DNA from: a virus
Strand: one strand, 5' to 3'
Virus record (IMG/VR): IMGVR_UViG_3300035698_029839
Span: 62,001-126,000 of that record
DNA: 64,000 nucleotides
Position 1 is the first letter of the stretch; each line of letters opens with the position of its first letter. A program made the position numbers and the translations under genes. Positions 4,118 to 50,000 of the stretch are shown in pieces. A model generated the notes under the pieces. The model worked only from the letters and a program-made list of their open reading frames with translations, made no database searches and was not told the origin of the DNA.

Positions 4118-4138
4118 TCAAAAAGTGAAAAATACTAT

Positions 4139-26902: not shown

Positions 26903-27943
26903 TTATAAAAAGTTGATATGATTTTTTTCTTTTTTAATGTTCCATAATATTGTGTTAAAAGTATCAGCCCTACACAGTAGGGGGCATTCTTTTAATTTTA
27001 TTTCTGATACAGCTTTTTTTCTTTGTTCTGAGTTCCATATTTCTTTTATTGAATTCTTTTTAATGTCTCCTATTACCATAGATTGTATTCCTCTTCCATG
27101 ACAACAGATATACATTTCTCCAGAAGCAGATATAGTAGTAGCGAATTGATGTCCATAGCATTTATCGTACTGTCTTTTTATATTATTATTGATCATAGCA
27201 TCGTATTTATGTTTGGAGCACAGTATGTTAGTTGTTTCATTTGCCTTTGATAGGAATTGATTGAAATCTATCGGAGTAAAATCTGTTAGGTCTTTTTTGT
27301 TTAGAGGTTTGATAAATGGTCTAAATTGTGCATAATCTACTTCTAATTCTATAGATAAATTTACGAAGTCCATCATATCGTTAAAATTATTTGTACCTAC
27401 ACCAGTTAAATATCCCACTCCTATTGTGCAATCTGATTGAATTCTTTTTTTAGTATCTACTAATGTTTTGATATCTTCTACAACTTTGCTGAAGTCTTTT
27501 GTTCCATGTACTATACGGTGAATTCTTTCTGATCCCGCGTCTAAACTTATTCTTATCCAAGTACAATTAGATAGCAAAGATTCGTTGTTGAAGTTATGCA
27601 ATAGTCCTCCATTTGTGATAAGACCTACGTCCATATTTTTAGATTTTGCATATTTTATAGCTTCTCCAGCATAGGGGTGGCAAAGTGGCTCTCCTCCTCC
27701 TGTAAAGATAATTCCCTTACATCCCATTTCAGAAACTTCTTTTATAGTTTTATTTATTTCGTTTTTAGAGAGTTCTTCTTTTAGAGAAAGATCTCCTCCT
27801 ACACATCCTGGACAGTTATGATTACATTTGTTTGTTAAATCTATTTCTAATGTTATTGCAAAAGGATTTCCTTCTTTATACCACTCATTAACTTCATCTA
27901 AGTGATTTAGTATTTTATCAGATGTGAATTGTTTTGGATTCAT
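26903..27943 (-). CDS. Radical SAM enzyme with SPASM-type C-terminus
   Basis: A 346-residue protein. C40-x3-C44-x2-C47 within L-T-N-K-C-N-H-N-C-P-G-C binds the 4Fe-4S/SAM cluster. F-T-G-G-G-E-P-L and S-L-D-A-G-S are barrel motifs. A C-terminal cysteine group (C-Y-G-H, Y-I-C-C-H-G-R-G, C-P-L-L-C) is SPASM-like and would hold auxiliary clusters. Relatives modify peptides or sugars by H-atom abstraction. It is read with a NodZ-like transferase and a methyltransferase, and faces a dehydrogenase/NeuA/NeuB operon. A second, different copy is at 47379. Confidence 0.85.
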   Translation of the reverse strand: MNPKQFTSDKILNHLDEVNEWYKEGNPFAITLEIDLTNKCNHNCPGCVGGDLSLKEELSKNEINKTIKEVSEMGCKGIIFTGGGEPLCHPYAGEAIKYAKSKNMDVGLITNGGLLHNFNNESLLSNCTWIRISLDAGSERIHRIVHGTKDFSKVVEDIKTLVDTKKRIQSDCTIGVGYLTGVGTNNFNDMMDFVNLSIELEVDYAQFRPFIKPLNKKDLTDFTPIDFNQFLSKANETTNILCSKHKYDAMINNNIKRQYDKCYGHQFATTISASGEMYICCHGRGIQSMVIGDIKKNSIKEIWNSEQRKKAVSEIKLKECPLLCRADTFNTILWNIKKEKNHINFL

Positions 27944-27945
27944 AT

Positions 27946-28866
27946 CTATTTTTTTCCTATAAATTCATGTGGCACATTTGGATTATAAAGCATGGCAGCA
28001 ATTGCCATATTTGTTTCTGGATGAATTATAAAATCACATTCCGCCAAACAGAGAGTGTCTATAATATTTTCTTTTCCTGCATCTCCTTTTGTTTTGCCGT
28101 CCATCGGTCCGTAGTCGGGGTCATTCCATTGGGGATCAATATCTGAAGAATGATATCTATATCTCATGTTATTTTTATGACATATTAGATTATTCCCGAA
28201 TTCTTTCTCGAATTTTTTAACAGATTCATGGCTGTCAGAAATTAAGTAGATATGATCAGCATCAATTTTTTTCATATAGTCTTGGCATTTTTTTATATAA
28301 TCATCTATTTCAAGTTTTTTGCCAGTTTTGAAAGTAGTATTTCCTGATATGGCATTAAATTTATTTGTTCCTCTGGCAAACGTACCAATTATTTTTTTCC
28401 CCTTCATATGCTTTTCGTAAAAGTCGTTTTTTTCTTTTAGTATGTAGGGTTTTATTTTTATATATTTATCAATTATTTTTTTGAAATGATTTCTATGTTT
28501 GAAATCAAAAGTAGGTGGAGTATTATTTTTAAATCTAGATAAATACCCCTTTGCTCCTCCAGCTATTCCTAAATAATAATGTAGGTGTTGAGGGTTAGAC
28601 ATAAAAGATGATCTGATTTTTTTATTTTTTTTATCTTTTTCACTTATATTTTTATCTGAGAATTGAGATACTGGTTCAAAGTAATATTCCCACACATTGT
28701 CTCCATATTTTAAATCGTAACATAGCAATTTTGGATTTTTCATACTTATTATTGGTATGAGATCTTTTTTTTCGCATTTGCTTAGATTATCCAGCACTTG
28801 TAAAAATATAGATGTTATGGAAGCTTTTCTGCTACTACGCGTTATATATGAAAATCTTTCATTCAT
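27946..28866 (-). CDS. NodZ/FUT8-like (GT23-type) glycosyltransferase
   Basis: A 306-residue GT-B protein. G-T-F-A-R165-G-T-N-K is reminiscent of the Arg-containing GDP-binding motif of alpha-1,6-fucosyltransferases. I-Y-L-I-S-D-S-H-E-S-V-K-K-F and A-G-K-E-N-I-I-D-T-L-C-L-A-E-C-D-F-I-I-H follow as in that superfamily. A fucose-type donor would need GDP-fucose, whose synthesis genes I do not see here. It is first in the minus-strand trio, just behind the palindrome at 28892. Confidence 0.6.
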   Translation of the reverse strand: MNERFSYITRSSRKASITSIFLQVLDNLSKCEKKDLIPIISMKNPKLLCYDLKYGDNVWEYYFEPVSQFSDKNISEKDKKNKKIRSSFMSNPQHLHYYLGIAGGAKGYLSRFKNNTPPTFDFKHRNHFKKIIDKYIKIKPYILKEKNDFYEKHMKGKKIIGTFARGTNKFNAISGNTTFKTGKKLEIDDYIKKCQDYMKKIDADHIYLISDSHESVKKFEKEFGNNLICHKNNMRYRYHSSDIDPQWNDPDYGPMDGKTKGDAGKENIIDTLCLAECDFIIHPETNMAIAAMLYNPNVPHEFIGKK

Positions 28867-28891
28867 TTATTTATCTTTCTTATAAATTTTG

Positions 28892-28909
28892 TCGATATAT
28901 TTATATCGA
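28892..28909. promoter_or_regulatory. 18-base palindrome in the second divergent gap
   Basis: TCGATATA-TT-TATATCGA is perfect and nearly matches the palindrome at 4101-4117. It lies 26 bases upstream of the minus-strand start. It also fills the 19-base spacer of a possible plus-strand promoter (TTGTCG at 28889-28894, TATAAT at 28914-28919). It may be a shared operator for both directions. Read on the minus strand it includes TATAAATA. Confidence 0.5.
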
Positions 28910-28949
28910 ATTTTATAATAAAAAAGATTAATATAAGAGGAATATTAAT

Positions 28950-29903
28950 ATGAGAAAAATAATTTGTATAACACCTGTTAAACACATAGATGGAGCTATG
29001 GAAGCTCTTCAAGGACATGGAGAAGTTATTTATGACCCGTACATTAGTAAAGTAGATCTTAAAAATAAAATAATTAATAATGAAATAGATACTATATTTT
29101 GCAATCCCTGTAAACAGATTTTTAAGATTGATGAGGAATTATTGAGTGGAACAAAGATTAATACTATTTGCACTTCTTCTACGGGTAATAATCATATAGA
29201 CATGGTTTATTGTAAAATTAACAATATAAATGTTTTGGCTATAACTAAAGATTATAAAATACTTAAGACTATAACAGCTACAGCGGAAATGGCTTTTACT
29301 CTTACCCTAGCTATTATTAGGAATTTAATAAAAGCTGTTAAAAGTTCTAGTGAGTATGATTGGGACTATGAGAAACATAAGAGTAGACAATTAGATCATC
29401 TGTCTGTTGGTATTATCGGATATGGTAGACTGGGAGAGATTTATGCTAGGTTTTGTAGTCCTTTCTTTAAAGATATTTTGGTTGTAGATCCTTATAAAAA
29501 TGTCCCCAACGATTATCAACAAGTAGAGTTTGATGAATTATTGAAAGAGTCAGATGTTATTGCTCTTCATATTCATCTTAACAAAGAGAATCGTCATATA
29601 ATAAATGAAAAGTCAATTAATAAAATGAAAGATGGTGTTTATTTAATTAATACTTCTAGGGGTGACATAGTAGATGAAAAAGCGGTTATAGAAGCTATTA
29701 GAAGCGGAAAGATAAAAGGTTATGCTGCCGATGTTATATCAGATGAGTATAAAGACGGAGTTGCAGGAAGCGAATTAATTAAAGCTATGAATGAAGGATT
29801 GAATATTATTATTACTCCTCATATTTCTGGTTGTACTAAAGAATCTCAAAAAATAGCGTACTTATATGTTATATCTAAATTAGGAAAGAAGAGAAATGAT
29901 TAA
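28950..29903 (+). CDS. D-isomer-specific 2-hydroxyacid dehydrogenase (A)
   Basis: A 317-residue NAD(P)-dependent dehydrogenase. V-G-I-I-G-Y-G-R-L-G near residue 152 is the dinucleotide loop. N-T-S-R237-G-D-I-V-D-E carries the substrate-binding Arg. H291 in T-P-H-I-S-G is the catalytic acid. Family enzymes interconvert 2-keto and D-2-hydroxy acids. It heads a four-gene operon (dehydrogenase, NeuA, NeuB, NeuB), so a role in making or altering a carboxylated sugar or lactyl-type group is likely. A paralogue at 48305 has the same neighbour types. SD AGAGGAA. Confidence 0.85.
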   Translation: MRKIICITPVKHIDGAMEALQGHGEVIYDPYISKVDLKNKIINNEIDTIFCNPCKQIFKIDEELLSGTKINTICTSSTGNNHIDMVYCKINNINVLAITKDYKILKTITATAEMAFTLTLAIIRNLIKAVKSSSEYDWDYEKHKSRQLDHLSVGIIGYGRLGEIYARFCSPFFKDILVVDPYKNVPNDYQQVEFDELLKESDVIALHIHLNKENRHIINEKSINKMKDGVYLINTSRGDIVDEKAVIEAIRSGKIKGYAADVISDEYKDGVAGSELIKAMNEGLNIIITPHISGCTKESQKIAYLYVISKLGKKRND

Positions 29904-30606
29904 TAATAAAAAAATATTAGCTATCACTCTGGCAAGAGGAGGATCTAAAGCAGTTAAAAAGAAAAATATTGTCGATATCTGCGGCAAACCATTATTACAA
30001 TATACAACTGACGAAGTTAAGAAAAGTAAATATATTGATAGATATATAGTTTCTACTGACGCTGATGATATTAAAGAAGTTTGTGAAGAATTAGATGTTG
30101 AATATTATAATAGATCTAAAGAATTTGCTCAATCCACTTCTACAACTGAAGATGCATTGATAGAGGTTGTAAACAATATAGGTGAAAATTTTGATTATAT
30201 TGTTGAAATAATGTGTACAAATCCACTTAAGACTATTGAAGATATAGATGGATGTATAGAAAAAATAGAAAATACTGATGCTGATTCTGTTACGTCAGTT
30301 GTAAGGATATGGGACCATCATCCATCAAGAGCAAAATATATTGAGGACGATTTATTAAAAGATTTTTTTCCAGAAAAGCAGCACAGGCGACAAGATTTAA
30401 AACCTCCTGCTTATGTTAGGAATGGATCTGTCTATATTACATATGTAGATAAATTATTAAAATACAAAAATAGATTAAATGGTCTTATTAGGCCATATAT
30501 TATGTCAGAGGATAATACAATCAATATAGATGAACATAGAGATTTAGAATTAGCTAGAATTTTAATAAAAATATTAAGTAAGGATAAAAAAAATGAAAAA
30601 AATTAA
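29896..30606 (+). CDS. neuA: CMP-N-acylneuraminate-type cytidylyltransferase
   Basis: A 236-residue NeuA-family enzyme that activates an ulosonic acid with CTP. I-T-L-A-R14-G-G-S-K18 is the CTP-binding loop. T-D-A-D-D-I, Q-S-T-S-T-T-E-D-A, C-T-N-P-L-K-T-I-E-D-I-D and R-N-G-S-V-Y-I-T are family landmarks. It lacks the C-terminal phosphatase domain found in some NeuA proteins; the KdsC-like gene at 4227 could supply that step. It overlaps the dehydrogenase by 8 bases and the first NeuB by 14. Confidence 0.85.
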   Translation: MINNKKILAITLARGGSKAVKKKNIVDICGKPLLQYTTDEVKKSKYIDRYIVSTDADDIKEVCEELDVEYYNRSKEFAQSTSTTEDALIEVVNNIGENFDYIVEIMCTNPLKTIEDIDGCIEKIENTDADSVTSVVRIWDHHPSRAKYIEDDLLKDFFPEKQHRRQDLKPPAYVRNGSVYITYVDKLLKYKNRLNGLIRPYIMSEDNTINIDEHRDLELARILIKILSKDKKNEKN

Positions 30607-31405
30607 GTTAATAGCGGAATTAGGATGGAATTGGATCGGAGATATTTCTCTTGCTAAAGAGATGATTTCAGCAGCAAAAGAATCAGGTGCTGATTATGCC
30701 AAATTTCAATCTTGGAAGGTTGATAGATTATTACCAGGTGCTTGGGATACAGATGGTAGAAGAGAGATATATAAAAAAGCAGAATTAACAGAAGAAAAAC
30801 ATCATATTATGAAAGAATACTGCGATTCTGTAGGAATTAAATTTCTTACTTCTTGTTTTTGCGAGAGAGATATAGATACTATGTTAAATTCTATTTTAAA
30901 TTTTACTAATGAGATTAAAATCCCAGGTGGCGATACGGGATGTCCTGAATTGGTGGAACCAGCTATAGAGAAATTTGATCATGTTTATATGTCTGTAGGT
31001 GCATTGGGTCTAGAAGAATATATTAAATGGGCATCTTATGACAACGTGACATTGATGCATTGTGTTTCTTCTTATCCTTGTAGTTTAGATCACGCTAACT
31101 TCCCAAAAATGAAATTCTTACAATCTCTTACTCCTCGAGTTGGGTATAGCGGACATGTTTTAGGTAATAGAGATGCGATGATTGCTATTGCCATGGGCGC
31201 TACTGTTATTGAGAAGCATTTTACTATTGATAATAATTTACCAGGAAAAGACAATCAGTTTTCTATTGAACCTCATGAGATGAAAGAAATAAAAGATTTT
31301 ATCGATGATTATGAAAAAGTAACAATTAATAGAGGGCTATTAGTACAAGAATGTGAGAGAGTTTATAAGGATAATTATGTAGGTAGATGGATGGGAGGAG
31401 AGTAA
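30593..31405 (+). CDS. neuB: NeuB-family ulosonic acid synthase, copy 1
   Basis: A 270-residue TIM-barrel synthase. I-A-E-L-G-W-N-W opens strand 1 (an altered A-E-I-G-x-N-H). Y-A-K-F-Q-S-W-K supplies the phosphoenolpyruvate Lys. L-M-H-C-V-S-S-Y-P, V-G-Y-S-G-H, and E-K-H-F-T-I-D-N-N-L-P-G-K-D with S-I-E-P complete the site. No SAF domain follows, unlike standard NeuB. It is about 75% like the next gene, with long identical DNA blocks. SD AAGGAT. Product likely a sialic-acid-like sugar; the exact one is unknown. Confidence 0.85.
   Translation: MKKIKLIAELGWNWIGDISLAKEMISAAKESGADYAKFQSWKVDRLLPGAWDTDGRREIYKKAELTEEKHHIMKEYCDSVGIKFLTSCFCERDIDTMLNSILNFTNEIKIPGGDTGCPELVEPAIEKFDHVYMSVGALGLEEYIKWASYDNVTLMHCVSSYPCSLDHANFPKMKFLQSLTPRVGYSGHVLGNRDAMIAIAMGATVIEKHFTIDNNLPGKDNQFSIEPHEMKEIKDFIDDYEKVTINRGLLVQECERVYKDNYVGRWMGGE
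31025..31166 (+). repeat. Near-identical block shared by tandem neuB copies
   Basis: Bases 31025-31089 (65) and 31094-31166 (73) are identical to 31829-31893 and 31898-31970, an exact 804-base offset. Sequence outside diverges freely. This marks a recent tandem duplication or conversion across the phosphoenolpyruvate-binding half of the barrel. Confidence 0.9.
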
Positions 31406-31408
31406 AAA

Positions 31409-32203
31409 ATGAAAAAAGTTAAATTAGTTGCGGAGTTAGGTTGGAGTTGGGTTGGAGATGTTTCTCTTGCTAAAGAGATGGTTTTTGCAGCAAAAGAATC
31501 AGGTGCTGATTGTGCTAAATTTCAAACTTGGAAAGCGGAAAGATTAATACCTGGGCCTTGGGACGAGGATGGCAGAAGAGAGATATATAAAAAAGCAGAA
31601 TTTACAGTAGAAAAACATCATATTATGAAGGACTACTGTGATTCTCTAGGAATAGAATTTATGACTTCTTGTTTTTGCGAGAGAGATATAGATACTATTT
31701 TAGAGTTTGCCAATGAAGTTAAGATTCCAGGTGCAGATGGAAGTTGTATTCCATTAATAGAAAAAGTAGTAGAGAAATTTGATCACGTTTATTTGTCTAC
31801 TGGTGCATTGGGTTTAGAAGAATATATCAAATGGGCATCTTATGACAACGTGACATTGATGCATTGTGTTTCTTCTTATCCTTGTAGTTTAGAGAATGCT
31901 AACTTCCCAAAAATGAAATTCTTACAATCTCTTACTCCTCGAGTTGGGTATAGCGGACATGTTTTAGGTAGCCTGGATGCTATTCTTGCTATCGCTTTGG
32001 GCGCTACTGTTATTGAGAAGCATTTTACTATTGATAATAATTTACCAGGAAAAGATAATAAAATGTCTATTCTTCCAAGTCATATGAAAGAAATAAAAGA
32101 TTTTAGAGATGCTTATGATAAAATGACAATTGATAATGGATTATTAATACAAGAATGTGAGAAAAATTTTAGAAAATGTATGACTGGAAGGTGGGATGGG
32201 TGA
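31409..32203 (+). CDS. neuB: NeuB-family ulosonic acid synthase, copy 2
   Basis: A 264-residue tandem paralogue of the preceding gene, three bases after it, with SD GGAGGAGAG. It keeps C-A-K-F-Q-T-W-K, L-M-H-C-V-S-S-Y-P, V-G-Y-S-G-H and E-K-H-F-T-I-D-N-N-L-P-G-K-D. The end changes from S-I-E-P to S-I-L-P, so the Glu often seen there is lost. It also lacks six residues near position 100 (L-N-S-I-L-N in copy 1). Both changes sit near the sugar site, so a different acceptor sugar or weakened activity is possible. No SAF domain. Confidence 0.82.
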   Translation: MKKVKLVAELGWSWVGDVSLAKEMVFAAKESGADCAKFQTWKAERLIPGPWDEDGRREIYKKAEFTVEKHHIMKDYCDSLGIEFMTSCFCERDIDTILEFANEVKIPGADGSCIPLIEKVVEKFDHVYLSTGALGLEEYIKWASYDNVTLMHCVSSYPCSLENANFPKMKFLQSLTPRVGYSGHVLGSLDAILAIALGATVIEKHFTIDNNLPGKDNKMSILPSHMKEIKDFRDAYDKMTIDNGLLIQECEKNFRKCMTGRWDG

Positions 32204-33012
32204 ATAAAGATTGGCTTTTAAATATTGAAAGTTATGAAAACAAAATATATTCTCAAGGAGGACAAGACGGAGTTATTGAATATATTTTTAATAATATAAG
32301 AACAAAAAATAACCCACCTTATTGTGTTGAGTTTGGATTTAATTCAGATACTTTAACTGGAGGTTCAGGTCCTAATGTTGCGAATCTTATTAAATATAAA
32401 GGATGGAAGGGTTTATTGTTAGATAGGGATTATGAGAATTTGGAAATTAATTTACATAAGCATTTTTTAACAAGCGATAATATTTGTGATATATTTAAAA
32501 TACATAATGTTCCTAAAGAGCCAGAATATGTTAGTATTGATATTGACTCTATAGACTTATGGTTATTTGAAGCGATTTTATCAGATTATAGGCCACTTGT
32601 TGTTTCGGTTGAATATAATTCTCTTTTTCCATTTGAGAGGGCTATAACTGTTTGTAATAACAATGATTTTAAAAAAAGAAAAGGTATGTATGGAGCATCT
32701 TTAAAAGCTTTAAAATTAGTTGGTGATAAATTCGGTTATGATATTATTAACATAGTGAGGGAAGATGTATTTTTTATAAGACATGATTTAATTGAAGATG
32801 TTAGTGCTATTCCTATAGAATATTTTAGAAATAAAACTTCTGTGGTTAGTAAGACACCTATACTTATATCAAAAAGGGGTTATAAGCTTGCTGATAAACT
32901 AGCTAAAAACTCTTTAGATTATGAAGTTTATTTAAAAACAGGCGGGGATATAAAAAAAAGTAGACAAGAAGCTTTTTTAATTAGCAGAGAATGTCTTCTA
33001 AAAAAGAAATAA
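32200..33012 (+). CDS. FkbM-like methyltransferase-type protein
   Basis: About 270 residues. Y-S-Q-G-G-Q-D-G-V-I-E-Y-I-F, then V-E-F-G-F and G-W-K-G-L-L-L-D, follow the FkbM-type order (SQxGQD, V-E-x-G, W-x-G-L-x-x-E). The usual acidic residue after G-L is Asp here. Y-V-S-I-D-I-D-S-I-D is the metal/SAM strand. FkbM proteins methylate hydroxyls of sugars and polyketides. GTG at 32200 is preferred because AAGGTGGG lies seven to nine bases before it; an ATG 24 bases upstream would overlap neuB further. Confidence 0.65.
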   Translation: MNKDWLLNIESYENKIYSQGGQDGVIEYIFNNIRTKNNPPYCVEFGFNSDTLTGGSGPNVANLIKYKGWKGLLLDRDYENLEINLHKHFLTSDNICDIFKIHNVPKEPEYVSIDIDSIDLWLFEAILSDYRPLVVSVEYNSLFPFERAITVCNNNDFKKRKGMYGASLKALKLVGDKFGYDIINIVREDVFFIRHDLIEDVSAIPIEYFRNKTSVVSKTPILISKRGYKLADKLAKNSLDYEVYLKTGGDIKKSRQEAFLISRECLLKKK

Positions 33013-33022
33013 TGGAGTAATA

Positions 33023-33667
33023 ATGAATAGAACATTAATAGTTATACTTACATGGAATCGTTTGGAAAAAACTAAACATACCCTTAAGACTTTAAAAAAA
33101 CATAATGGTAGAGATCTAGATTTTTTATTCGTTGATAATGGATCAACTGATGGTACTGTAGAATTTGTAGAAAGAAAAGGCTGGAAAATAATTAAGAACA
33201 AAACTAATGAGGGTATTTTTAGAGCCACTACTAAAGCTTGGATGGAAGGAGTTAAGATGGGATATGATTTTATTCTGAATCTTCAGAACGATTTCCCATG
33301 TTCACGAAGAATACCTTTTAATACTCTTGAGTCATATATGGACAATAATTCTGATGTTTGTTATATAAGGTTAAATAAGAAGAAAGATAAAAAGAAAAAT
33401 ATTGTCACAAATGCTCTTATTAAATATCAGGAGGAAGAGAAATTTGAAGACTATAGAATATTAAAATGTAATTACCATGCAGGTTTTAATCCTTCTATGA
33501 TTAGATCTACTATTATAAAAGACTATATAAAATATGATGGAGACAATCCGAGAGAACGTATTCTTATGAATAATTTTGAAAAAATGGGTAAGCAGTGTGC
33601 CAAATTGTATCCAGAAGTTTTTGAAACATTAAGACAGAACCATCATATACCAGGTTGGATACATTAA
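33023..33667 (+). CDS. GT2-type glycosyltransferase
   Basis: A 214-residue short GT-A enzyme. V-I-L-T-W-N-R and F-V-D-N-G-S-T-D-G-T bind the nucleotide. F-I-L-N-L-Q-N-D-F-P replaces the usual DxD with N-D. N-E-G-I-F-R-A motif present. The acceptor half is compact. SD TGGAG. It shares a stop/start base with the MptE/Maf-like gene that follows (TAATG), as the two may act together. Confidence 0.8.
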   Translation: MNRTLIVILTWNRLEKTKHTLKTLKKHNGRDLDFLFVDNGSTDGTVEFVERKGWKIIKNKTNEGIFRATTKAWMEGVKMGYDFILNLQNDFPCSRRIPFNTLESYMDNNSDVCYIRLNKKKDKKKNIVTNALIKYQEEEKFEDYRILKCNYHAGFNPSMIRSTIIKDYIKYDGDNPRERILMNNFEKMGKQCAKLYPEVFETLRQNHHIPGWIH

Positions 33668-34407
33668 TGGGTCTTTTTTTAAATCATGAATTTGATAAAA
33701 ATAATAGAACTAAAACTGTAGTTATATATGGTTGTGGATCTTCTTTGAATGATCTTACCGATTTAGATAGTTATGTTCTGAGCCAGTTCGATAGTGTGGC
33801 GTTCAACTGGTTTTGTTTTTCCCATATTCCTGTTACTTATTACTTAGTTAGAGAGCAGGCTAATATTCCTAAAAGAGTTCATGGAGAAGAGACAGTCGAT
33901 AATTTTTACAATTTAATTAACAAGTATTATAAAAAAAGTTGTTTAGTTATTCATGATTTATATAATCATTCTCCTAATGCTTATCCTTACTGGCATGTCA
34001 ATAATGAAAAAGAATTTATTCCTAATTCTATTTATGTGCAAGATACAAAATTAAAAGGGAATGATCCAGGAGTGGATAGGTGGGGGAAAGAGAATATTTT
34101 GAAAGATGGTATATATCATGGAAAAACTACATTAACTAATACTTTACATTTTGCGGTATGGATGGGTTATGAAAGAATTATTTTTGTTGGTATAGATCTT
34201 TATGATTCTAAATATTTTTGGTTGAAAGATAATGAAACAAGATATTCTGTAAAGAATAAGAAAAAGACAAAAGATTCTAAGCACCAAGCGGCAAAGGACA
34301 CTTTGGGTTTAATTGAAAAAGTTAAAAAAATTTATCCAGATATAGAAATGTATACATATAATAAAAAATCTTTGTTATCTGGTGTTATTGGGGTGTGGAA
34401 TAGCTAA
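33667..34407 (+). CDS. MptE/Maf-like (DUF115) protein 1
   Basis: A 246-residue protein. V-V-I-Y-G-C-G-S-S-L-N-D near residue 20 is the G-x-G-x-S loop. F-N-W-F-C-F follows, and R-I-I-F-V-G-I-D-L-Y near residue 180 is the G-x-D motif. This order marks the DUF115 family, which includes MptE and the Maf flagellin nonulosonate transferases. With CMP-ulosonate genes nearby, transfer of an ulosonic acid is a reasonable idea. Relatives are at 36644, 44553 and 60990. ATG at 33667 is preferred over an upstream TTG. Confidence 0.6.
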   Translation: MGLFLNHEFDKNNRTKTVVIYGCGSSLNDLTDLDSYVLSQFDSVAFNWFCFSHIPVTYYLVREQANIPKRVHGEETVDNFYNLINKYYKKSCLVIHDLYNHSPNAYPYWHVNNEKEFIPNSIYVQDTKLKGNDPGVDRWGKENILKDGIYHGKTTLTNTLHFAVWMGYERIIFVGIDLYDSKYFWLKDNETRYSVKNKKKTKDSKHQAAKDTLGLIEKVKKIYPDIEMYTYNKKSLLSGVIGVWNS

Positions 34408-34921: not shown

Positions 34922-34923
34922 AT

Positions 34924-35784: not shown

Positions 35785-35787
35785 TTT

Positions 35788-38845: not shown

Positions 38846-38849
38846 CAAT

Positions 38850-40569: not shown

Positions 40570-40572
40570 TAT

Positions 40573-41972: not shown

Positions 41973-41978
41973 ATTTTT

Positions 41979-42497: not shown

Positions 42498-43327
42498 TTA
42501 TAGTTTTAAATCATTATAACACAAATAGGGAGAGTCCTTATGGTGACACTTGGAGAAATATTATTTTTTCTTGTTTGAAAAATTTCCCCAATATTAAGAA
42601 AATAGTTATAGATTGGGGTTCTAATGATGGCTCTAATATTTTAGCAAAAGAGACATGTGAAAAAGAAGGATATATATATGAGGAAATAAGAAAAGAAGGA
42701 AAAAATAAAAAGTTTAGCTGGTTTGAATATTTATGTTATTGGATGGATATTATGTTGAAATATATTGATTATAAGGAATATATTTTATATTTAGAAGCTG
42801 ATACCTATATATGTGGAGATGAAAATCAATTATTTAAAGCTGAGCAAATTTTAAAAAATAATAAGAACATAGGAATGGTTAATTTGCTTAGGTTGGATTG
42901 GGACGGACTAAGACCAACATATGTTTATAGACAAATAGAAAATGGTTTTATATTGCCTAGAATAAAAGAACCCAAGAAGTCATTAGAATTTAAAAAACAA
43001 AATAATGAGTTGTTATCAGCTAGGAGACATATAAGAGGAATATGGAATAATTGGGATATTAAATGCACCTTATTTAAATTTTCTTGTTTTCACTCAGCGT
43101 TTAAAGATCTGCATCGTTCTAAAATTCATAGGAAGGATAAAAAAAGGGGGTTTTATAATTTTGCTGTTATATTTTGTAATAAGTATCAATGTTCAATAAG
43201 TGATTATTTTTTCTCTTATAATTACGGGACTCTTGGCCGTCAATATGATAAAGCTATAGAAATTTGTAATAATTATTGGAATGATAAAATAATAGATATT
43301 TGTAAAGAATCTATTTTATATGTATAA
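42494..43327 (+). CDS. GT-A-type glycosyltransferase
   Basis: A 277-residue protein. I-V-L-N-H-Y-N opens it and V-I-D-W-G-S-N-D-G-S binds nucleotide. Y-I-L-Y-L-E-A-D-T-Y-I near residue 99 is an E-A-D version of DxD. The acceptor half is rich in Trp, Lys and Cys, and is diverged. No membrane segment. Coupled upstream by ATGA and followed by an 18-base gap. Confidence 0.68.
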   Translation: MIIVLNHYNTNRESPYGDTWRNIIFSCLKNFPNIKKIVIDWGSNDGSNILAKETCEKEGYIYEEIRKEGKNKKFSWFEYLCYWMDIMLKYIDYKEYILYLEADTYICGDENQLFKAEQILKNNKNIGMVNLLRLDWDGLRPTYVYRQIENGFILPRIKEPKKSLEFKKQNNELLSARRHIRGIWNNWDIKCTLFKFSCFHSAFKDLHRSKIHRKDKKRGFYNFAVIFCNKYQCSISDYFFSYNYGTLGRQYDKAIEICNNYWNDKIIDICKESILYV

Positions 43328-43345
43328 ATTAAAGGAACTACCCAA

Positions 43346-44005
43346 ATGAAAAAAATTAAAGAATATAAAAGGAAATGGGATAATTATGAAATTGGGAATG
43401 TTAAATGGATCGATATTAATAGAGAACATTATAGTAGAAGAAAATTTATAGAATATATTAAAAAAGATAAAATAAAAACAATTATAGAAGTTGGAGGAGG
43501 AGAGCTTATTGAAGCTCAAGATATATTATCTAAGGGTTTGGTTGATAATTATTCTGTTGTTGATGTTTCAGATGTGTTTTTAAAATTTGCTCAAAGTATT
43601 AATGGGCTGAAATCATTCAGGGGGGACATGATTGATATTCCTATGAAAGATAAAGAGTTTGATCTTATTTATTGTAGTTCTGTATTAGAGCATTCTCCAG
43701 ATATTAGAAAGACTATTTCTGAAGCTAGAAGAGTGAGTAGAAAATTTTATTTTACTATGTTTAAATGGAGAATGAAGACAGGTGGGTTAGAATCTGTTTT
43801 TCGTCATAAAAAGGGATATTTTTCGACAGAGTTTAATATAGATATGTTATTAGATTTAATAACAAAATATGGGAATATTAAATATCTTGGAATAAATGGT
43901 AGAGAGGGAGGGGAAGAAGTATTTGATGAATATAGGAAAAATAATCAAGATATCGATTTAAATAGAAATGGCAAGTATCTGAGTATTCAGGGGTCCTGGG
44001 GATAA
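43346..44005 (+). CDS. Class I SAM methyltransferase (Methyltransf_11 type)
   Basis: A 219-residue protein. T-I-I-E-V-G-G-G-E near residue 45 is motif I. Y-S-V-V-D-V-S follows, then F-R-G-D-M-I-D-I-P, D-L-I-Y-C-S-S-V-L-E-H-S-P-D and the post-III helix. F-Y-F-T-M-F-K-W-R is an unusual continuation. SD AAAGGAA lies ten bases before the ATG. It probably methylates a sugar added by the preceding GT-A. Confidence 0.78.
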   Translation: MKKIKEYKRKWDNYEIGNVKWIDINREHYSRRKFIEYIKKDKIKTIIEVGGGELIEAQDILSKGLVDNYSVVDVSDVFLKFAQSINGLKSFRGDMIDIPMKDKEFDLIYCSSVLEHSPDIRKTISEARRVSRKFYFTMFKWRMKTGGLESVFRHKKGYFSTEFNIDMLLDLITKYGNIKYLGINGREGGEEVFDEYRKNNQDIDLNRNGKYLSIQGSWG

Positions 44006-44014
44006 TAACTTTTT

Positions 44015-44551
44015 ATGAGTAAAATTGAAAAATATATGAAAAGATATTGTCTAAAGTTTGCTGAATTTAAAAAAGTAGATTTGCGGACTTTATATTGCCA
44101 ATATCGTCCTGGCATTGATCCTAGCGATTTAAAAATTATCAATTCTTCTCATTTTGAATTGGCAGATTTATATTATAAAAATGGATTATCTTGGTTGGAA
44201 AAAAACTTTAGTAATACCAAATATTTTACATTCCAAAAATATATATTAAAAATAAATCCTCATTTTCCTAAAAAAAAGATACATTTATTTGATTCCTTAA
44301 AGAAAGGATATCTAAGGAAAGGTCATGAAAAAGATCATGTTGTGATTTTGAATATCCCTTTTATTTGTAGTAGATATGGATTGAAAAATGTTTTTGCATA
44401 TTCTCCTGAAATTTATATAGGCCATCATAGATCCGCTGCATTAATTGCTTTAGGAGAATATATGTCGGAGGTTATGGTAGCTACTGATGACCAACCAATG
44501 ACTCATAAATGCAATAGTAAATTACATAAGATATATAAGGAAATAAAATAA
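44015..44551 (+). CDS. ParB/sulfiredoxin-like domain protein
   Basis: A 178-residue protein. The C-terminal part V-F-A-Y-S-P-E-I-Y-I-G-H-H-R-S-A-A-L-I-A-L-G matches the ParB-type G-H-H-R-x-A motif closely. The N-terminal 90 residues are aromatic and basic, with L-x-x-L-Y-C-Q-Y-R-P resembling the Y-Y-P-Y-R-T step of 53723. It sits between a methyltransferase and a DUF115-like gene. Possible nucleotide or phosphotransfer role as in other ParB-fold proteins; not shown. Confidence 0.6.
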   Translation: MSKIEKYMKRYCLKFAEFKKVDLRTLYCQYRPGIDPSDLKIINSSHFELADLYYKNGLSWLEKNFSNTKYFTFQKYILKINPHFPKKKIHLFDSLKKGYLRKGHEKDHVVILNIPFICSRYGLKNVFAYSPEIYIGHHRSAALIALGEYMSEVMVATDDQPMTHKCNSKLHKIYKEIK

Positions 44552-44552
44552 T

Positions 44553-45227
44553 ATGGAATATTTAAAAGATTATGTTGGTAGTGGTGAAAATAAAGATTTT
44601 CTTATTGTCGGTGGAGGACGTACTATTAAGGATTATGAAGATAAAATTATAGATTTTATAAAGTCTAATTCTATTGTGACTATAGGTATCAATAAATTAC
44701 TTCCATCTATACCAATAAATTATCAATTATGGACTAATAAACAAAGATATATTACTTTGAAAGATGGTGTTATTAAAGAATCTAAATTAATGTTTGGGTG
44801 TAATTTAGATAAGAGGATTATTAAAAAGAATTATGAAGGAGAAGATTATATTTGTGTTAATTATACTTCTCAGTTTTCTGAAGCTATGAAAGAAGAAATA
44901 GATTATAAAGATGGCAAGATATTTGGATTTTTTAGAACGGCAGGAACTTTAGCTATTATGATTGCTCATATTTTTGGAGCTAATAATATTTATATAGTAG
45001 GTATGGATGGTTATACTCTATATGGTAAGGAAGATTTGTTATCTAAGAACAAACATCACCATTGTTATGGGGAAGGATATACTGATGATGCTAATTGGGA
45101 GAAATGTAAGAAAAAAGATGATCAAGTTGATGAAAATTTAAAAGAACTACATAGTTATGGGGTTAATTTTAAAATTATTACCCCTACTAAATTTAAAGAT
45201 TTTTATGATTTTAATATTTTAGGATAA
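44553..45227 (+). CDS. MptE/Maf-like (DUF115) protein 3
   Basis: A 224-residue protein. F-L-I-V-G-G-G-R-T-I-K-D near residue 16 is the G-G-G-R/P-S loop. I-V-T-I-G-I-N-K is the usual N-turn. F-R-T-A-G-T-L-A-I-M-I-A-H-I-F-G, then I-Y-I-V-G-M-D-G-Y near residue 150, completes the DUF115 pattern. This is the clearest of the four relatives. It may transfer or bind a phospho- or CMP-linked acid sugar. SD AAGGAAAT. Confidence 0.65.
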   Translation: MEYLKDYVGSGENKDFLIVGGGRTIKDYEDKIIDFIKSNSIVTIGINKLLPSIPINYQLWTNKQRYITLKDGVIKESKLMFGCNLDKRIIKKNYEGEDYICVNYTSQFSEAMKEEIDYKDGKIFGFFRTAGTLAIMIAHIFGANNIYIVGMDGYTLYGKEDLLSKNKHHHCYGEGYTDDANWEKCKKKDDQVDENLKELHSYGVNFKIITPTKFKDFYDFNILG

Positions 45228-45231
45228 TAAT

Positions 45232-45834
45232 ATGGGAAGTCCAAATAAGGAAGAGCTAAAAATATTATATAAATATGCTAGTAGATGTAATTTTATTATT
45301 GAAACTGGAGGTGGGGGAAAATCAACAATATGGTTAGCTAAAGCTGCTTTAAAATCTGGAGCTACTTTTGTATCCATAGAGGCTGATAAGAATAGAAAGA
45401 TTCCTATTGAAAAAGAATTGGAAGAAGTAATTAATTATAAATATGGATGGTCTGTTACTTATGATGATATTGTTAAAATAGGGGACTCTAGATTTGTAGA
45501 GTCCAGATATAAAACTATAGATGCAGAGATAGCATTTGGGAGAAAAGATCTTATGATAGGAGAAGTGGATTTAATAAGGAAAACTATTGAAGAATTAAAA
45601 TTGCATCTTGATTTCTTTTTTTGTGATACTGGAGAGTATTGCGGTATAGCAGAGTGGAATATAGTAAAAAATAAAATTAAACAGGGAGGCTATTTTGTAG
45701 CCCATGATATATATTTTCCGAAAAGTATAAAATGTTTTCAAGTTATTGAAGAAATTGAAAATAGTAAGGATTGGGAAATGATTATTAAAACTAATAGCAG
45801 ACAGGAATTAGCAGTGGCATGTAAATTAAGGTGA
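45232..45834 (+). CDS. Class I SAM methyltransferase-like protein
   Basis: A 200-residue protein. F-I-I-E-T-G-G-G-G-K-S-T near residue 22 is motif I, with a Gly-rich loop. F-V-S-I-E-A-D ends strand 2. D-F-F-F-C-D-T-G-E-Y, Q-G-G-Y-F-V-A-H-D-I provide later acids. The build resembles short FkbM/CmcI-type enzymes. SD AGGA. Four bases separate it from the preceding gene. Confidence 0.7.
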   Translation: MGSPNKEELKILYKYASRCNFIIETGGGGKSTIWLAKAALKSGATFVSIEADKNRKIPIEKELEEVINYKYGWSVTYDDIVKIGDSRFVESRYKTIDAEIAFGRKDLMIGEVDLIRKTIEELKLHLDFFFCDTGEYCGIAEWNIVKNKIKQGGYFVAHDIYFPKSIKCFQVIEEIENSKDWEMIIKTNSRQELAVACKLR

Positions 45835-45837
45835 TTT

Positions 45838-46542
45838 ATGAAATATCCGATAATGAATAATTTAAATACTGATTTTAAAATGAATAATACATATAGTAAG
45901 TATATTGATGATCAGATGAGTGCAGGGAAAGATTTTCTATTTTCATTGGATGGAGTACCAATTTCTAAAGAGTATCCTGAAAAAGAAGTTTCTTCAGAGA
46001 TATATGATAAGATTTGGGATAAGAAACCTCATCATAATAATGTGCATCCATATATGTCAATAATGGCAGAATTATGTAAAAAGCATTCTCCAGATGTTAA
46101 GCATATTATTGATGTTGGAGCAGGGTTTGGGAATATGGCAATTATGTTTATAGATAAAATTAAACCATTGTCTTATACAGCTTATGAATTTTCAAATGCT
46201 CATGAGAAGATAACGGAACGTTTTAAAAATGTCTCTTGTGAAACAAATGTGATAGTAGATTCATTCAGAGAATGTAGTTTAGAAAAATTTGACTGTGTTG
46301 TTGCAACAGAAATATTTGAACATATTTGTTGGGATATTGAATTTTTATCTAAGATACCTAGCGGTACATATATTTATTTTTCCGTACCATCTCATCACTC
46401 TATAGTGCATGTTCGTGCATTTTTGGTCCCTGAAAGTATATATCTTAGGTATGATGATGTGGTTGATATTATTGATATAAAGACTGTTTATAGACATAAA
46501 GATATTCCTAAATGGTGGTGTGTTGCTGCTAGGAAAAAATAA
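45838..46542 (+). CDS. Class I SAM methyltransferase
   Basis: A 234-residue protein. Residues 1-75 form a long helical N-terminus. I-I-D-V-G-A-G-F-G-N-M-A near residue 91 is motif I. Y-T-A-Y-E-F ends strand 2, and C-V-V-A-T-E-I-F-E-H-I is the motif IV plus post helix. Y-I-Y-F-S-V-P-S-H-H-S follows. SD AGGTGA. It lies just before the KdsB gene, after a run of methyltransferase-like genes. Confidence 0.75.
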   Translation: MKYPIMNNLNTDFKMNNTYSKYIDDQMSAGKDFLFSLDGVPISKEYPEKEVSSEIYDKIWDKKPHHNNVHPYMSIMAELCKKHSPDVKHIIDVGAGFGNMAIMFIDKIKPLSYTAYEFSNAHEKITERFKNVSCETNVIVDSFRECSLEKFDCVVATEIFEHICWDIEFLSKIPSGTYIYFSVPSHHSIVHVRAFLVPESIYLRYDDVVDIIDIKTVYRHKDIPKWWCVAARKK

Positions 46543-46563
46543 TTATAGTTTAGGAGAATAAAA

Positions 46564-47379
46564 ATGAAAGAAGAAACATATATAGGTATTATACCTGCAA
46601 GATATCAATCATCACGTTTCCCAGGAAAACCTCTTTGTGATATCTTAGGACAACCTATGATTAGAATAGTTTATGATTCGGTTATGAAGTGGAATAGGTG
46701 GAAAAATGTTTATGTAGCCACTGATAGTGAAAAAATAAAAAAGAGATGTGAGGAATTTAAAGTGCCTGTTATTATGACAAAAGATACTCATACTGATTGT
46801 TTAGATAGAGCGGCAGAAGTGGTGGAAATTTTAGAATCTAATAAAAATGGTGCTGATAAATATGTAGTAGTGCAAGGAGATGAACCTCTATTTAATGTTG
46901 ACACTTTAGATACTGATCTAACTCCTTCCATTATTAATTTTTATACGGAAGTTCATGATCAATATGATAAATATGATAGTAATGCTGTTAAAGTAGTAAT
47001 TTCAAATAATTGTAAGGCTTTATATTTTTCAAGATATTCAGTGCCATATCATGATAATAAAACTAAAAGAACTGATGATGAAGAAGTTGTTTTAAAACAA
47101 ATAGGTGTATATGTTTTTAGCGGAGAAATGTTGAAAATTTATACTAGTTTAAAACAAACTTCTTTAGAGAATATGGAGGGAATTGGGCTAAATCGTCTTA
47201 TAGAAAATGATATAGAAGTACATATGAGATATACTAAGCACGATAGTATAAGTGTTGATACTCCAGAAGATAGAAATAGAATTATAAAATTAATTAAAAA
47301 ATATTATAGTGATATTGGTTCTTCTATTAATGATGATGGTAGTGTTATAAATTGTGATGGAAATAGTAGGATGATATAA
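46564..47379 (+). CDS. kdsB: CMP-KDO synthetase-type cytidylyltransferase
   Basis: A 271-residue KdsB-family enzyme that activates KDO or a similar acid with CTP. I-I-P-A-R13-Y-x-S-S-R-F-P-G-K-P-L is the CTP loop. V-V-Q-G-D-E-P, Y-F-S-R-Y-S-V-P, K-Q-I-G-V-Y-V-F and S-V-D-T-P-E-D are all present. An insert around residue 120-130 is longer than usual, and a 20-residue acidic tail is added. It heads the second ulosonate module, followed by radical SAM, dehydrogenase and aldolase. SD AGGAG. Confidence 0.9.
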   Translation: MKEETYIGIIPARYQSSRFPGKPLCDILGQPMIRIVYDSVMKWNRWKNVYVATDSEKIKKRCEEFKVPVIMTKDTHTDCLDRAAEVVEILESNKNGADKYVVVQGDEPLFNVDTLDTDLTPSIINFYTEVHDQYDKYDSNAVKVVISNNCKALYFSRYSVPYHDNKTKRTDDEEVVLKQIGVYVFSGEMLKIYTSLKQTSLENMEGIGLNRLIENDIEVHMRYTKHDSISVDTPEDRNRIIKLIKKYYSDIGSSINDDGSVINCDGNSRMI

Positions 47380-48308
47380 TGAAATTAATATTGTCAGTTA
47401 CTAAAAGATGTAATATGAGATGTCCTAATTGTTTGTGGATTTTAGAAAAAGGAGATTTTTTTAATAAAGACGATATGCCTCTTCAAGATGCTATAGATAT
47501 TTTTGAATATTATAAAAAAAATAAGTTAAAAAACGTAGTTTTGCAAGGAGAGGGAGAGGTTTTTTTATATCCTTATTTTAAAGAACTTTATTCTTATTTT
47601 CTTAAATCTAAAGTTGCTTTGAATGGAATTACAACTAATGGTTTGATTCTTGATAAATTTTTATATGTTGCTAAAGATGTTGGGCTAACAATTAGCTTAG
47701 ATGGATATGATAGTCAAAGTTATATGGAACATAGAGGTGGTGGGGAAGATCAATTTAACAAAGTATTAGATAATATAAGAGAAGTTTTAAAAGTTAAAAA
47801 TAGAAAAAAAATAGTTATAAATTGTATCGTCTCCCTTACTGATTATAAAAAAATACCAGGCATGATAGCACTAGCAGAATCCTTAGGCGTAGATTATATG
47901 AGATTTGGAAACTACCATCCCATAGCGGGTGATTTAAAACCTTTGTTTGATACTGATAAAGAAGTTGTTGATTTTTATAAAAATATTATTAGCAAAGATG
48001 ATTATAAAGTTAATATCACGCTGCCAGGTTTGATGAGTACAAATAAAGGGAAGCTTAAATGCAGTATGCTTAAGTGCAAAAACGTTGGTTCTGAAGGTTT
48101 TTATTCTCCATGTTGTCATATATCTACAGATGTTAAATATGGATCTTTCCCTAATGAATCAAAAAGTTTAACGGAATTTAAAAAACAATTTAGTAATGCT
48201 AAAAAAATAACCGATCTTCCAGAGCCATGTAGATTATGTCCTAGATTATTTAAAAATAGAATAATTTTTAATAAAGATAGCAAAAAGTGGAGTAAAAAAT
48301 TATTGTGA
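47379..48308 (+). CDS. Radical SAM enzyme with SPASM-like C-terminus
   Basis: A 309-residue protein. C11-x3-C15-x2-C18 in V-T-K-R-C-N-M-R-C-P-N-C binds the 4Fe-4S/SAM cluster. V-L-Q-G-E-G-E-V is an odd form of the GGE motif, and T-I-S-L-D-G-Y follows. A C-terminal Cys group (C-S-M-L-K-C, C-C-H, C-R-L-C) looks SPASM-like. Neighbours are KdsB upstream (TAATG) and a D-2-hydroxyacid dehydrogenase downstream, a near copy of the 26903-29896 grouping. It may modify a carboxylated sugar or a peptide. Confidence 0.85.
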   Translation: MKLILSVTKRCNMRCPNCLWILEKGDFFNKDDMPLQDAIDIFEYYKKNKLKNVVLQGEGEVFLYPYFKELYSYFLKSKVALNGITTNGLILDKFLYVAKDVGLTISLDGYDSQSYMEHRGGGEDQFNKVLDNIREVLKVKNRKKIVINCIVSLTDYKKIPGMIALAESLGVDYMRFGNYHPIAGDLKPLFDTDKEVVDFYKNIISKDDYKVNITLPGLMSTNKGKLKCSMLKCKNVGSEGFYSPCCHISTDVKYGSFPNESKSLTEFKKQFSNAKKITDLPEPCRLCPRLFKNRIIFNKDSKKWSKKLL

Positions 48309-49255
48309 ATATACTAATAACTGTATATCCATTTGGTAAGTGTGGAGATAAACCTATTACACTTCTTGAAGGTAGGGGGTGGAATCTAATATTTAATCCT
48401 TTAGAGAGAAGATTGAAAGAAGACGAAGTTAGAGAAATGGTAAAAGGAGTGGATGCAGTAATAGCTGGAACTGAACCATATAACAGAAGAACTATTCAAT
48501 ATGCTAAAGATTTAAAAGTTATTTCTAGATCAGGAATAGGTCTTGATAGTATCGATTATCAAGCGTGTAAAGAGAAAAATATATTAGTTGCAAATACTCC
48601 AGAAGCTCCTTCTGATGCTGTGTCAGATTTAACTATTGCTCAAATTTTTAATTTATTGAGAAATATTTATATATCTAATCAATTCATTAAAAATGGCATG
48701 TGGAAAAGGTTTACAGGCTTATCAATTAGGCAAATAAAAATAGGTATTTTGGGAGTAGGTAGGATAGGTGGTAGAGTTATAAATAGATTAAAGTCATTTG
48801 ATGCAAATATTTTAGCTTGTGATGTAGATATAAATAAAGATATAGATGGAGTTATATGGGTTGATAAGGATACTTTATTTAAAGAATCTGATTTAATATC
48901 TATTCATATCCCGTTAACTAAAAAAAATTATCATTTTGTTGGTATGAATGAATTGAGCATGATGAAAAAAGGTGCATATTTAATTAATACTTCTAGAGGC
49001 AGCGTGTTGAATGAGAGAGATCTGGAATCATGTCTTATTAACCATCATCTAGCAGGGGCAGCTTTAGATGTTTTTGAAAAAGAGCCATATGAGGGATGTA
49101 TGAAGGATATGGATAATGTTCTATTGACTGCTCATCATGCTTCTTCTGATAGATTATCAAAATATAAAATGGAATTAGGAGCAGTTGAAAATTGTATAAA
49201 ACTTCTTAATGGAGAAATTCCAAAAGACATAGTTACGGAGAAAGATTTTGAATAA
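48305..49255 (+). CDS. D-isomer-specific 2-hydroxyacid dehydrogenase (B)
   Basis: A 316-residue NAD(P)-dependent dehydrogenase. S-R-S-G-I-G-L-D-S-I-D near residue 78 and G-I-L-G-V-G-R-I-G near 144 are the substrate and dinucleotide motifs. N-T-S-R-G-S-V-L-N-E has the substrate Arg, and F-E-K-E-P holds the catalytic Glu. The usual H-x-(S/G) acid is in T-A-H-H-A-S-S. Built like phosphoglycerate dehydrogenases without the ACT domain. GTG start overlaps the previous stop (GTGA). Confidence 0.87.
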   Translation: MNILITVYPFGKCGDKPITLLEGRGWNLIFNPLERRLKEDEVREMVKGVDAVIAGTEPYNRRTIQYAKDLKVISRSGIGLDSIDYQACKEKNILVANTPEAPSDAVSDLTIAQIFNLLRNIYISNQFIKNGMWKRFTGLSIRQIKIGILGVGRIGGRVINRLKSFDANILACDVDINKDIDGVIWVDKDTLFKESDLISIHIPLTKKNYHFVGMNELSMMKKGAYLINTSRGSVLNERDLESCLINHHLAGAALDVFEKEPYEGCMKDMDNVLLTAHHASSDRLSKYKMELGAVENCIKLLNGEIPKDIVTEKDFE

Positions 49256-50000
49256 ATTAAAAGAAGCATTAAAAAATAATAAAGTATCGTTGGGGACTTG
49301 GATTCAAATTCCTCATCCTTCTATCGTAGAAATTATTGCTCATAATTGTAGAGGTAAATTAGATTGGATGTGTATAGATATGGAGCATGGTTCTATAGAT
49401 ATAGAGTCTATGACTAATCTAATTAGAACTATTGAGAAGTATAATATCACTCCTATTGTGAGGATACCTAAGAATGATTATATATGGATTCACAGGGTTT
49501 TAGATGCTGGGGCTAAGGGTCTAGTCATACCTATGGTGAAAAGTGAATCTGAGGCATCTGATGCTGTTTTAGAGACATTGTATCCTCCGTTAGGAAATAG
49601 AAGCTTTGGATATAGTCGTGCTAATATATATGGGGCTGATTTTGAAGAATATATTAAAAGTGCTAATGACGATATAGCTATAATTATTCAAATTGAACAT
49701 ATTGATTCTATAAATGAATTAGATTTTATTTTATCTGTTAAGGGTATAGATGGGACATTTATTGGACCTTATGATCTGTCAGGATCTTTAGGAGTATCTG
49801 GAGATTTTGATAATGAAGCATATCAGAATGCTTTATCATTTTATATATCAAAATCTAATGAGCATAAAATTCCGATGGGTATTCATATTGTTAGACCGAA
49901 TTTGGAAAAAGTAAAATTTTGTAAAAATGTTGGGTATAAAATGATAGCAATTGGTACTGATGCTGTTCTTCTTGAAGAGAAATGCAAAGAAATTTTTTAA
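49248..50000 (+). CDS. HpcH/HpaI-family aldolase
   Basis: A 250-residue class II pyruvate aldolase-type protein. L-G-T-W-I-Q-I-P-H-P near residue 15 and C-I-D-M-E-H-G-S near 43 open the barrel. V-I-P-M-V-K-S follows, then Y-P-P-L-G-N-R-S-F-G, I-I-Q-I-E-H (metal Glu) and F-I-G-P-Y-D-L-S-G-S (metal Asp). Such enzymes cleave or form 2-keto-3-deoxy acids with pyruvate. Next to KdsB and a D-2-hydroxyacid dehydrogenase, it may build or trim a keto acid for a sugar. TTG start is set by GGAG (49237-49240) seven bases upstream. Confidence 0.87.
   Translation: MNKLKEALKNNKVSLGTWIQIPHPSIVEIIAHNCRGKLDWMCIDMEHGSIDIESMTNLIRTIEKYNITPIVRIPKNDYIWIHRVLDAGAKGLVIPMVKSESEASDAVLETLYPPLGNRSFGYSRANIYGADFEEYIKSANDDIAIIIQIEHIDSINELDFILSVKGIDGTFIGPYDLSGSLGVSGDFDNEAYQNALSFYISKSNEHKIPMGIHIVRPNLEKVKFCKNVGYKMIAIGTDAVLLEEKCKEIF

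Follow-up and report, generated by a model that had tools for sequence, protein, structure and literature searches.

Two predicted CMP-ulosonate modules of a putative jumbo-phage glycan cluster pair a CMP-acid synthetase with a D-2-hydroxyacid dehydrogenase

Introduction

The described systems closest to the locus reported here are the 3-deoxy-D-manno-octulosonic acid (Kdo) pathway (KdsD-KdsA-KdsC-KdsB) and the sialic, legionaminic and pseudaminic acid (Pse) pathways, together with enzymes that modify or transfer acids linked to cytidine monophosphate (CMP). The phage protein EpaA, which combines a CTP_transf_3 domain and an aldo-keto reductase in one polypeptide, acts with EpaB, a short-chain dehydrogenase/reductase (SDR), to turn Pse into 8-epiPse (PMC12053666). 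The PF01973 (MptE-like) family is the MAF_flag10 domain of the Maf glycosyltransferases, and Maf enzymes that carry it transfer CMP-Neu5Ac (the CMP-linked form of N-acetylneuraminic acid) and CMP-KDO to protein (PMC11339370). Here, we analyze a 64,000-nucleotide stretch of viral DNA, referred to as the window (positions 62001-126000 of the 297,710-bp IMG/VR record IMGVR_UViG_3300035698_029839; GC 29%), in which two gene sets, modules 1 and 2, each place a CMP-acid synthetase beside a D-2-hydroxyacid dehydrogenase (HADH; 2HADH for the family).

Each of the described systems resembles the window in part. Module 2 shares with the Kdo pathway a KdsB-type synthetase and a 3-deoxy-2-ulosonate-type logic, a likeness that extends to a bacterial locus with an SIS isomerase and a phosphatase, but no KdsA adjoins the synthetase, and a pyruvate-type aldolase of the HpcH/HpaI family is present instead, along with a D-2-hydroxyacid dehydrogenase. 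Module 1 has adjacent NeuA and NeuB homologs, as in the sialic, legionaminic and pseudaminic acid pathways; however, its NeuBs are SAF-less and duplicated, and a 2-hydroxyacid dehydrogenase is added. EpaA and EpaB are likewise phage genes that couple a CTP_transf_3 domain with oxidoreductases acting on ulosonic acids, but these oxidoreductases are not 2HADHs, and they occur in small prophages with no de novo synthase (PMC12053666). The window's MAF_flag10/MptE-like domains lie near CMP-acid synthetases and so recall the Maf flagellin enzymes (PMC11339370), from which they differ as single-domain proteins of 215-290 aa that score below the family cut-off, with no flagellin. Cyanophage S-SCSM2R also carries its own CMP-Kdo-type genes inside a glycan cluster, but it uses KdsA and has neither HADH nor HpcH nearby.

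A sequence-only reading of the window had proposed a repeated trio of CMP-acid synthetase, SPASM-type radical S-adenosylmethionine (SAM) enzyme and dehydrogenase, possibly a new route to an unusual carboxylated sugar. The literature that we searched describes no KdsB-2HADH-HpcH module and holds nothing relevant on the trio, nor on HpcH with a cytidylyltransferase and a 2HADH in surface-glycan loci. We propose, with moderate confidence in the explanation as a whole, that the window holds two CMP-ulosonate modules within a cytoplasmic phage glycan cluster, with the dehydrogenases as core enzymes, the radical SAM enzymes as accessories, and transfer by MptE/Maf-like proteins.

Results

Gene content of the two modules

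Module 2 is a plus-strand run that begins with a KdsB-type CMP-ulosonate synthetase (46564-47379; matches to Pfam and to KdsB in the PDB, conserved motifs intact), continues with radical SAM protein 2 (47379-48308; Pfam; cysteine motif CNMRCPNC) and HADH2, a D-2-hydroxyacid dehydrogenase of the phosphoglycerate/glyoxylate reductase type (48305-49255; Pfam and PDB; GTG start), and ends with an HpcH/HpaI-type class II pyruvate aldolase (49248-50000; Pfam and PDB). Open reading frames (ORFs) and Pfam matches thus bear out the four enzyme types that the sequence-only reading had named at 46564-50000. The run is translationally coupled, and radical SAM 2 is placed between KdsB and HADH2 with overlapping start and stop codons. 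HADH2 retains the catalytic Arg, Glu and His. Aldolases of the HpcH/HpaI type join pyruvate-type enolates to aldehydes, and the module 2 protein has the motifs DMEHG, VR, IE and GPYDLS, with HpaI, GarL, YfaU and hydroxyketoacid aldolases as its nearest solved relatives. The phosphoenolpyruvate (PEP)-dependent Kdo8P synthase KdsA is not beside KdsB; HpcH stands in its place, and the cluster's NeuB-family genes are at other positions.

Module 1 consists of plus-strand genes for HADH1 (28950-29903; Pfam), a NeuA-type CMP-acid synthetase (29896-30606; Pfam; PDB matches to CMP-Neu5Ac synthetases) and two SAF-less, NeuB-type, PEP-dependent ulosonate synthases, NeuB1 (30593-31405; Pfam) and its duplicate NeuB2 (31409-32203; 77% amino acid identity to NeuB1). 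The catalytic Arg (NTSRG), Glu (DVISDE) and His (PHIS) of HADH1 are present, as is GxGxxG, and its nearest solved relative is D-lactate dehydrogenase. The NeuBs are 264 and 270 aa long; their match stops before the C-terminal SAF region, and both are without the SAF domain, as are some bacterial NeuBs. The tandem (30593-32203) is near-identical in DNA over codons 141-180 and 201-220, which suggests recent duplication or gene conversion.

Upstream of this operon, on the minus strand, lie radical SAM/SPASM protein 1 (26903-27943; Pfam; CNHNCPGC) and, between it and HADH1, a putative glycosyltransferase that is weakly NodZ/fucosyltransferase-like (27946-28866; NodZ match E 0.016). The sequence-only reading was right about every enzyme type in module 1, but because radical SAM 1 is encoded by the minus strand, with the 27946-28866 gene in between, it lies outside the HADH1-NeuA-NeuB operon. 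The downstream neighbor of radical SAM 1 is a SAM-dependent O-methyltransferase (Methyltransf_24; 26267-26890, minus strand; Pfam). A fold model of the NodZ-like protein had too low a confidence and was not used.

The synthetase-dehydrogenase pairing is kept in a sister phage

Viral contigs scanned with the two radical SAM proteins, KdsB, HpcH and the NodZ-like neighbor yielded one useful relative, a 547,943-bp virus contig found by the HpcH scan and referred to as the sister phage. Synteny between its cluster and the window extends over about 60 kb, and 44 of the 69 cluster ORFs have a homolog there (identity of 40% or more across 60% of length). HADH1-NeuA-NeuB and KdsB-HADH2-HpcH are both kept in order at 59-75% identity (HADH1, 61%; NeuA, 69%; KdsB, 75%; HADH2, 59%; HpcH, 70%), with a single NeuB that is 61% identical to both NeuB1 and NeuB2. 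In the sister phage, HADH2 comes directly after KdsB, and the methyltransferase (56-58% identity) directly abuts the NodZ-like gene (72%), leaving the slots of radical SAM 2 and radical SAM 1 empty. None of the six radical SAM genes on the sister contig lies near the CMP-synthetase modules. Because about one-third of the cluster genes differ between the two phages, missing two genes is not rare by itself; the key contrast is that the CMP-synthetase, HADH and aldolase or NeuB genes are all kept and the radical SAM genes are not.

Exactly two HADH genes per phage score above the family cut-off, and each adjoins a CMP-acid synthetase. In the record, neither HADH gene is more than 2.1 kb from a synthetase; random placement would give this with a probability of about 0.002 over the record and about 0.02 within the cluster. 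For the radical SAM genes, two of the record's four are near a synthetase (p of about 0.016 and 0.09, respectively). The HADH-synthetase association is thus better than chance, and the radical SAM association alone is not convincing. Of the rare pair of enzymes said to accompany both synthetases, the dehydrogenase is supported as a module member and the radical SAM enzyme is not.

The tblastn matches of HADH1 in a phage collection (Listeria, Staphylococcus and Enterococcus) look like host DNA and were not used; several deposited "phage" records (OR8xxxxx) match bacterial 2HADH genes.

Bacterial and plasmid relatives of the modules

We searched about 400 genomes of one phylum, Actinomycetota (that of Cryobacterium), in which several relevant contigs were short, with an HADH2 profile built from the two phages. 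In genome G248 (rank 4), genes for an HADH2-type enzyme, KdsB and HpcH occur within about 7 kb on one strand. Their neighbors include carbamoyltransferase, methyltransferase, Gfo/Idh oxidoreductase, SIS isomerase and inositol-phosphatase-family genes, and the contig is a polysaccharide cluster with a Wzy_C ligase, a sugar transferase and GT9. Genome G258 (rank 2) has, in sequence, a KdsB fragment, a methyltransferase, an HADH2-type gene and a HAD phosphatase. KdsB was found in only 6 of 397 genomes (E<=1e-20), the best match being in G248 and the next in G027, where the start of an HpcH gene lies directly behind KdsB at the contig end. All three genes therefore occur together in the two phages and G248, with partial sets in G258 and G027. 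No ORF of at least 200 aa with CX3CX2C near its N terminus occurs in these bacterial stretches.

On the HpcH tree, the phages and G248 form a group (support, 100/100) separate from the actinobacterial HpcHs that we presumed to be catabolic; the placement of the phage branch on the KdsB tree was not resolved. A scan of genome contigs with the HpcH pair returned only these actinobacterial HpcHs, at 30-33% identity, whose catabolic role is an assumption. In Actinomycetota NeuB neighborhoods, NeuA is present in 19 of 20, and HADH, HpcH and either radical SAM enzyme in none of the 20. Likewise, no 2HADH is annotated in 12 plasmid NeuB/KdsB neighborhoods. On a Leisingera plasmid (L120, 6371-9373), a gene for an "aldolase catalytic domain" protein immediately precedes those for KdsB and a HAD hydrolase, possibly another aldolase-based CMP-ulosonate route.

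From these comparisons, the conserved unit is a predicted CMP-acid synthetase and a 2-hydroxyacid dehydrogenase; the enzyme forming the C-C bond would be HpcH or NeuB. The arrangement is consistent with non-standard routes to a carboxylated sugar, as had been suggested, without support for the radical SAM part of that suggestion. Recurrence of the trio, on which the sequence-only reading had made its own case depend, was not seen: no examined locus besides the window holds all three genes.

The radical SAM enzymes belong to different subfamilies

A SPASM domain had been assigned to both radical SAM proteins. Pfam finds it in radical SAM 1 only; radical SAM 2 has a C-terminal Cys-rich tail, and the two represent different subfamilies. 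Relatives of radical SAM 1 occur in glycan-type clusters of Azospirillum, Streptomyces, Solidesulfovibrio and a podovirus. The podovirus gene lies among glycosyltransferases, between the major capsid gene and later structural genes, a placement that would fit virion decoration without proving it. We considered the "NAD(P)-dependent oxidoreductase" beside the Solidesulfovibrio gene as a 2HADH and rejected it as an RmlD-like SDR. A relative of radical SAM 2 in Brachyspira plasmids is located between rfbF and a 3,5-epimerase-family gene, which suggests that this family works in sugar clusters. Because neither gene is kept in the sister phage or the bacterial relatives, both look optional and are best seen as putative lineage-specific accessory genes for glycan tailoring.

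A separate radical SAM gene (6638-7483), with an AmmeMemoRadiSam/PFL-activase look (family assigned by eye), adjoins a peptide deformylase gene (5574-6272). This pair is kept in the sister phage and is unrelated to the sugar modules.

MptE-like proteins and the third ulosonate set

The record has five PF01973 matches, most of them below the curated cut-off. Each of the three CMP-acid synthetases has a PF01973-like gene within 4 kb, and such genes also lie near the synthetases of the sister phage. The copies near the synthetases of the record score 20.9-33 bits against a cut-off of 34.6, and one further copy scores 44 bits. Near module 1, the protein at 33655-34407 (plus strand; E 3e-6, below the curated cut-off; sister identity, 59%) is a candidate CMP-acid transferase. 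The MptE/MAF_flag10-like protein near module 2 (44553-45227, plus strand; E 9e-5, and 2e-5 in the sister ortholog) has a sister ortholog that directly abuts KdsB, and its structural model is closest to Methanocaldococcus jannaschii MptE (TM score, 0.52; probability, 1.00; E 1.1e-3). A third such protein in the window, at the right end of the cluster (60951-61829, plus strand; PF01973 match below the cut-off), is 56% identical in the sister phage.

The picture of a repeated module had missed a third NeuB/CMP-synthetase set at the flank. This set comprises a NeuB-type synthase at the cluster edge (3249-4121, minus strand; Pfam; sister ortholog, 52%), paired with a KdsC-like HAD phosphatase (4227-4796, plus strand), and a CMP-acid synthetase that adjoins an MptE-like gene just left of the window (virus record 57172-59521). 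Neither an HADH nor a radical SAM gene of the module types stands alongside the third synthase or synthetase. The NeuB, synthetase and MptE-like genes of the set are kept in the 548-kb sister phage.

The surrounding cluster and its virus

By Pfam, the modules lie in a glycan cluster of about 55-58 kb (window 7806-62000) dense in glycosyltransferases, methyltransferases and nucleotide-sugar enzymes. It is unusually large, has soluble enzymes throughout and is syntenic in the 548-kb phage. Clear membrane segments are absent from the cluster ORFs (the highest 19-residue mean is 1.86). Pfam scans, which covered almost all of the larger cluster ORFs, recognized no UDP-sugar 2-epimerase/hydrolase (NeuC/LegG/PseG) or aminotransferase; the host could supply the hexosamine acceptor for a nonulosonic acid pathway. 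An RraA-like aldolase gene (10763-11494) and a formyltransferase gene (52327-53043) inside the cluster are absent from the sister phage, and an RlaP-type RNA-repair nucleotidyltransferase (62669-63553) at the right border is about 70% identical there.

Outside the window, the record encodes a split T4-type DNA polymerase and DnaB-like and other helicases. Terminase_6N gave no match in the 298-kb record or the 548-kb record, and capsid families were not searched. The designation of the source as a probable jumbo phage thus rests on the IMG/VR class and these replication genes; the record may be a fragment or divergent. The sequence-only reading had not recognized the window as phage DNA.

Discussion

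We considered how the conserved genes could operate together. In module 2, HpcH would join pyruvate (or hydroxypyruvate) and an aldose to give a 2-keto-ulosonic acid, which KdsB would activate with cytidine triphosphate to CMP-ulosonate, with no PEP-dependent synthase beside it. HADH2 would most likely oxidize a D-2-hydroxyacid of the lactate or glycerate type to the keto-acid donor; alternatively, it may act on a 2-hydroxyacid portion of the sugar. In module 1, a SAF-less NeuB would make the acid with PEP and NeuA would activate it, with HADH1 performing a comparable redox step. An MptE/Maf-like protein would then pass on the CMP-linked acid, with a soluble molecule, plausibly a phage protein, as the acceptor, and the radical SAM enzymes would tailor sugars or glycans in a lineage-specific manner. 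Because the cluster ORFs are without a clear membrane segment, unlike the bacterial G248 cluster, cytoplasmic glycosylation seems more likely than polymer export; together with the MptE-like proteins, this suggests transfer in the cytoplasm onto protein, perhaps a virion protein.

Several observations weigh against this proposal. HADH1 and HADH2 are only about 28% identical and could have different jobs, and supplying a keto-acid donor does not fit module 1, whose NeuB uses PEP. The bacterial recurrence amounts to three fragments from one phylum, and with a single sister phage, loss of the radical SAM genes there and gain here are indistinguishable. All three MptE-like proteins of the window fall under the PF01973 curated cut-off, and the model of the 44553-45227 protein has a mean confidence of 64. 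No phage structural gene was identified; capsid families were outside the search.

Since donor supply does not carry over to module 1, redox tailoring of the acid stays a serious rival. The dehydrogenases would then epimerize or oxidize a ring or side-chain carbon of a nonulosonic acid before or after CMP activation. EpaA and EpaB offer a phage precedent for a dehydrogenase combined with a cytidylyltransferase (PMC12053666), and tailoring would explain why an HADH accompanies a PEP-type (NeuB) module as well as an aldolase-type (HpcH) one; however, the HADH family typically works on 2-hydroxyacid or 2-ketoacid groups rather than ring carbons, and EpaA and EpaB have other folds. We consider tailoring somewhat unlikely. 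A distinctly less probable role is the making of a lactyl- or glyceryl-type substituent (D-lactate, D-glycerate) for the glycan, with no part in ulosonic acid work. The relationship of HADH1 to D-lactate dehydrogenase fits such a role, but no gene for activating or attaching a hydroxy acid was recognized in the operons, and the adjacency of the dehydrogenases is specifically to CMP-acid genes.

The radical SAM enzymes can also be given a larger part than our proposal allows them. If synthetase, radical SAM enzyme and dehydrogenase formed one pathway, the radical SAM step would be needed for a new carboxylated sugar and the sister phage would make a simpler one. The translational coupling of radical SAM 2 and its Brachyspira relative in a sugar locus agree with this, but a radical SAM gene is missing from both sister slots, the bacterial KdsB/HADH/HpcH loci and the 20 NeuB neighborhoods, and the window's two enzymes differ in subfamily and in SPASM; a single pathway of this kind appears improbable to us. 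It is very hard to credit that they are maturases of ribosomally synthesized and post-translationally modified peptides, in the cluster by chance, even though radical SAM 1 has SPASM and there is weak PDB similarity to SkfB and YydG. The gaps around radical SAM 1 are 13 bp and 2 bp, the codons around radical SAM 2 overlap, and the closest deposited phage relative lies among glycosyltransferase genes. We rejected this explanation because a precursor-peptide gene does not fit next to either enzyme.

Returning to the proposal of two HADH-based CMP-ulosonate modules, its furthest extension, which we offer as a speculation and think rather unlikely, is that jumbo phages make two or three unusual CMP-ulosonic acids themselves, one of them by HpcH, a 2-hydroxyacid dehydrogenase and KdsB, and attach these to their own virion proteins through compact Maf-like transferases, acquiring a sialic-acid-like coat without membrane machinery. 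The occurrence of the KdsB-2HADH-HpcH set both in jumbo phages and in a bacterial polysaccharide cluster suggests an uncharacterized aldolase-based route to CMP-linked sugar acids, one that three small soluble enzymes make open to in vitro study. It also suggests that phage genomes can encode nearly complete sets of soluble enzymes for acidic-sugar synthesis, a possibility relevant to the glycosylation of virions and to alteration of the host surface.

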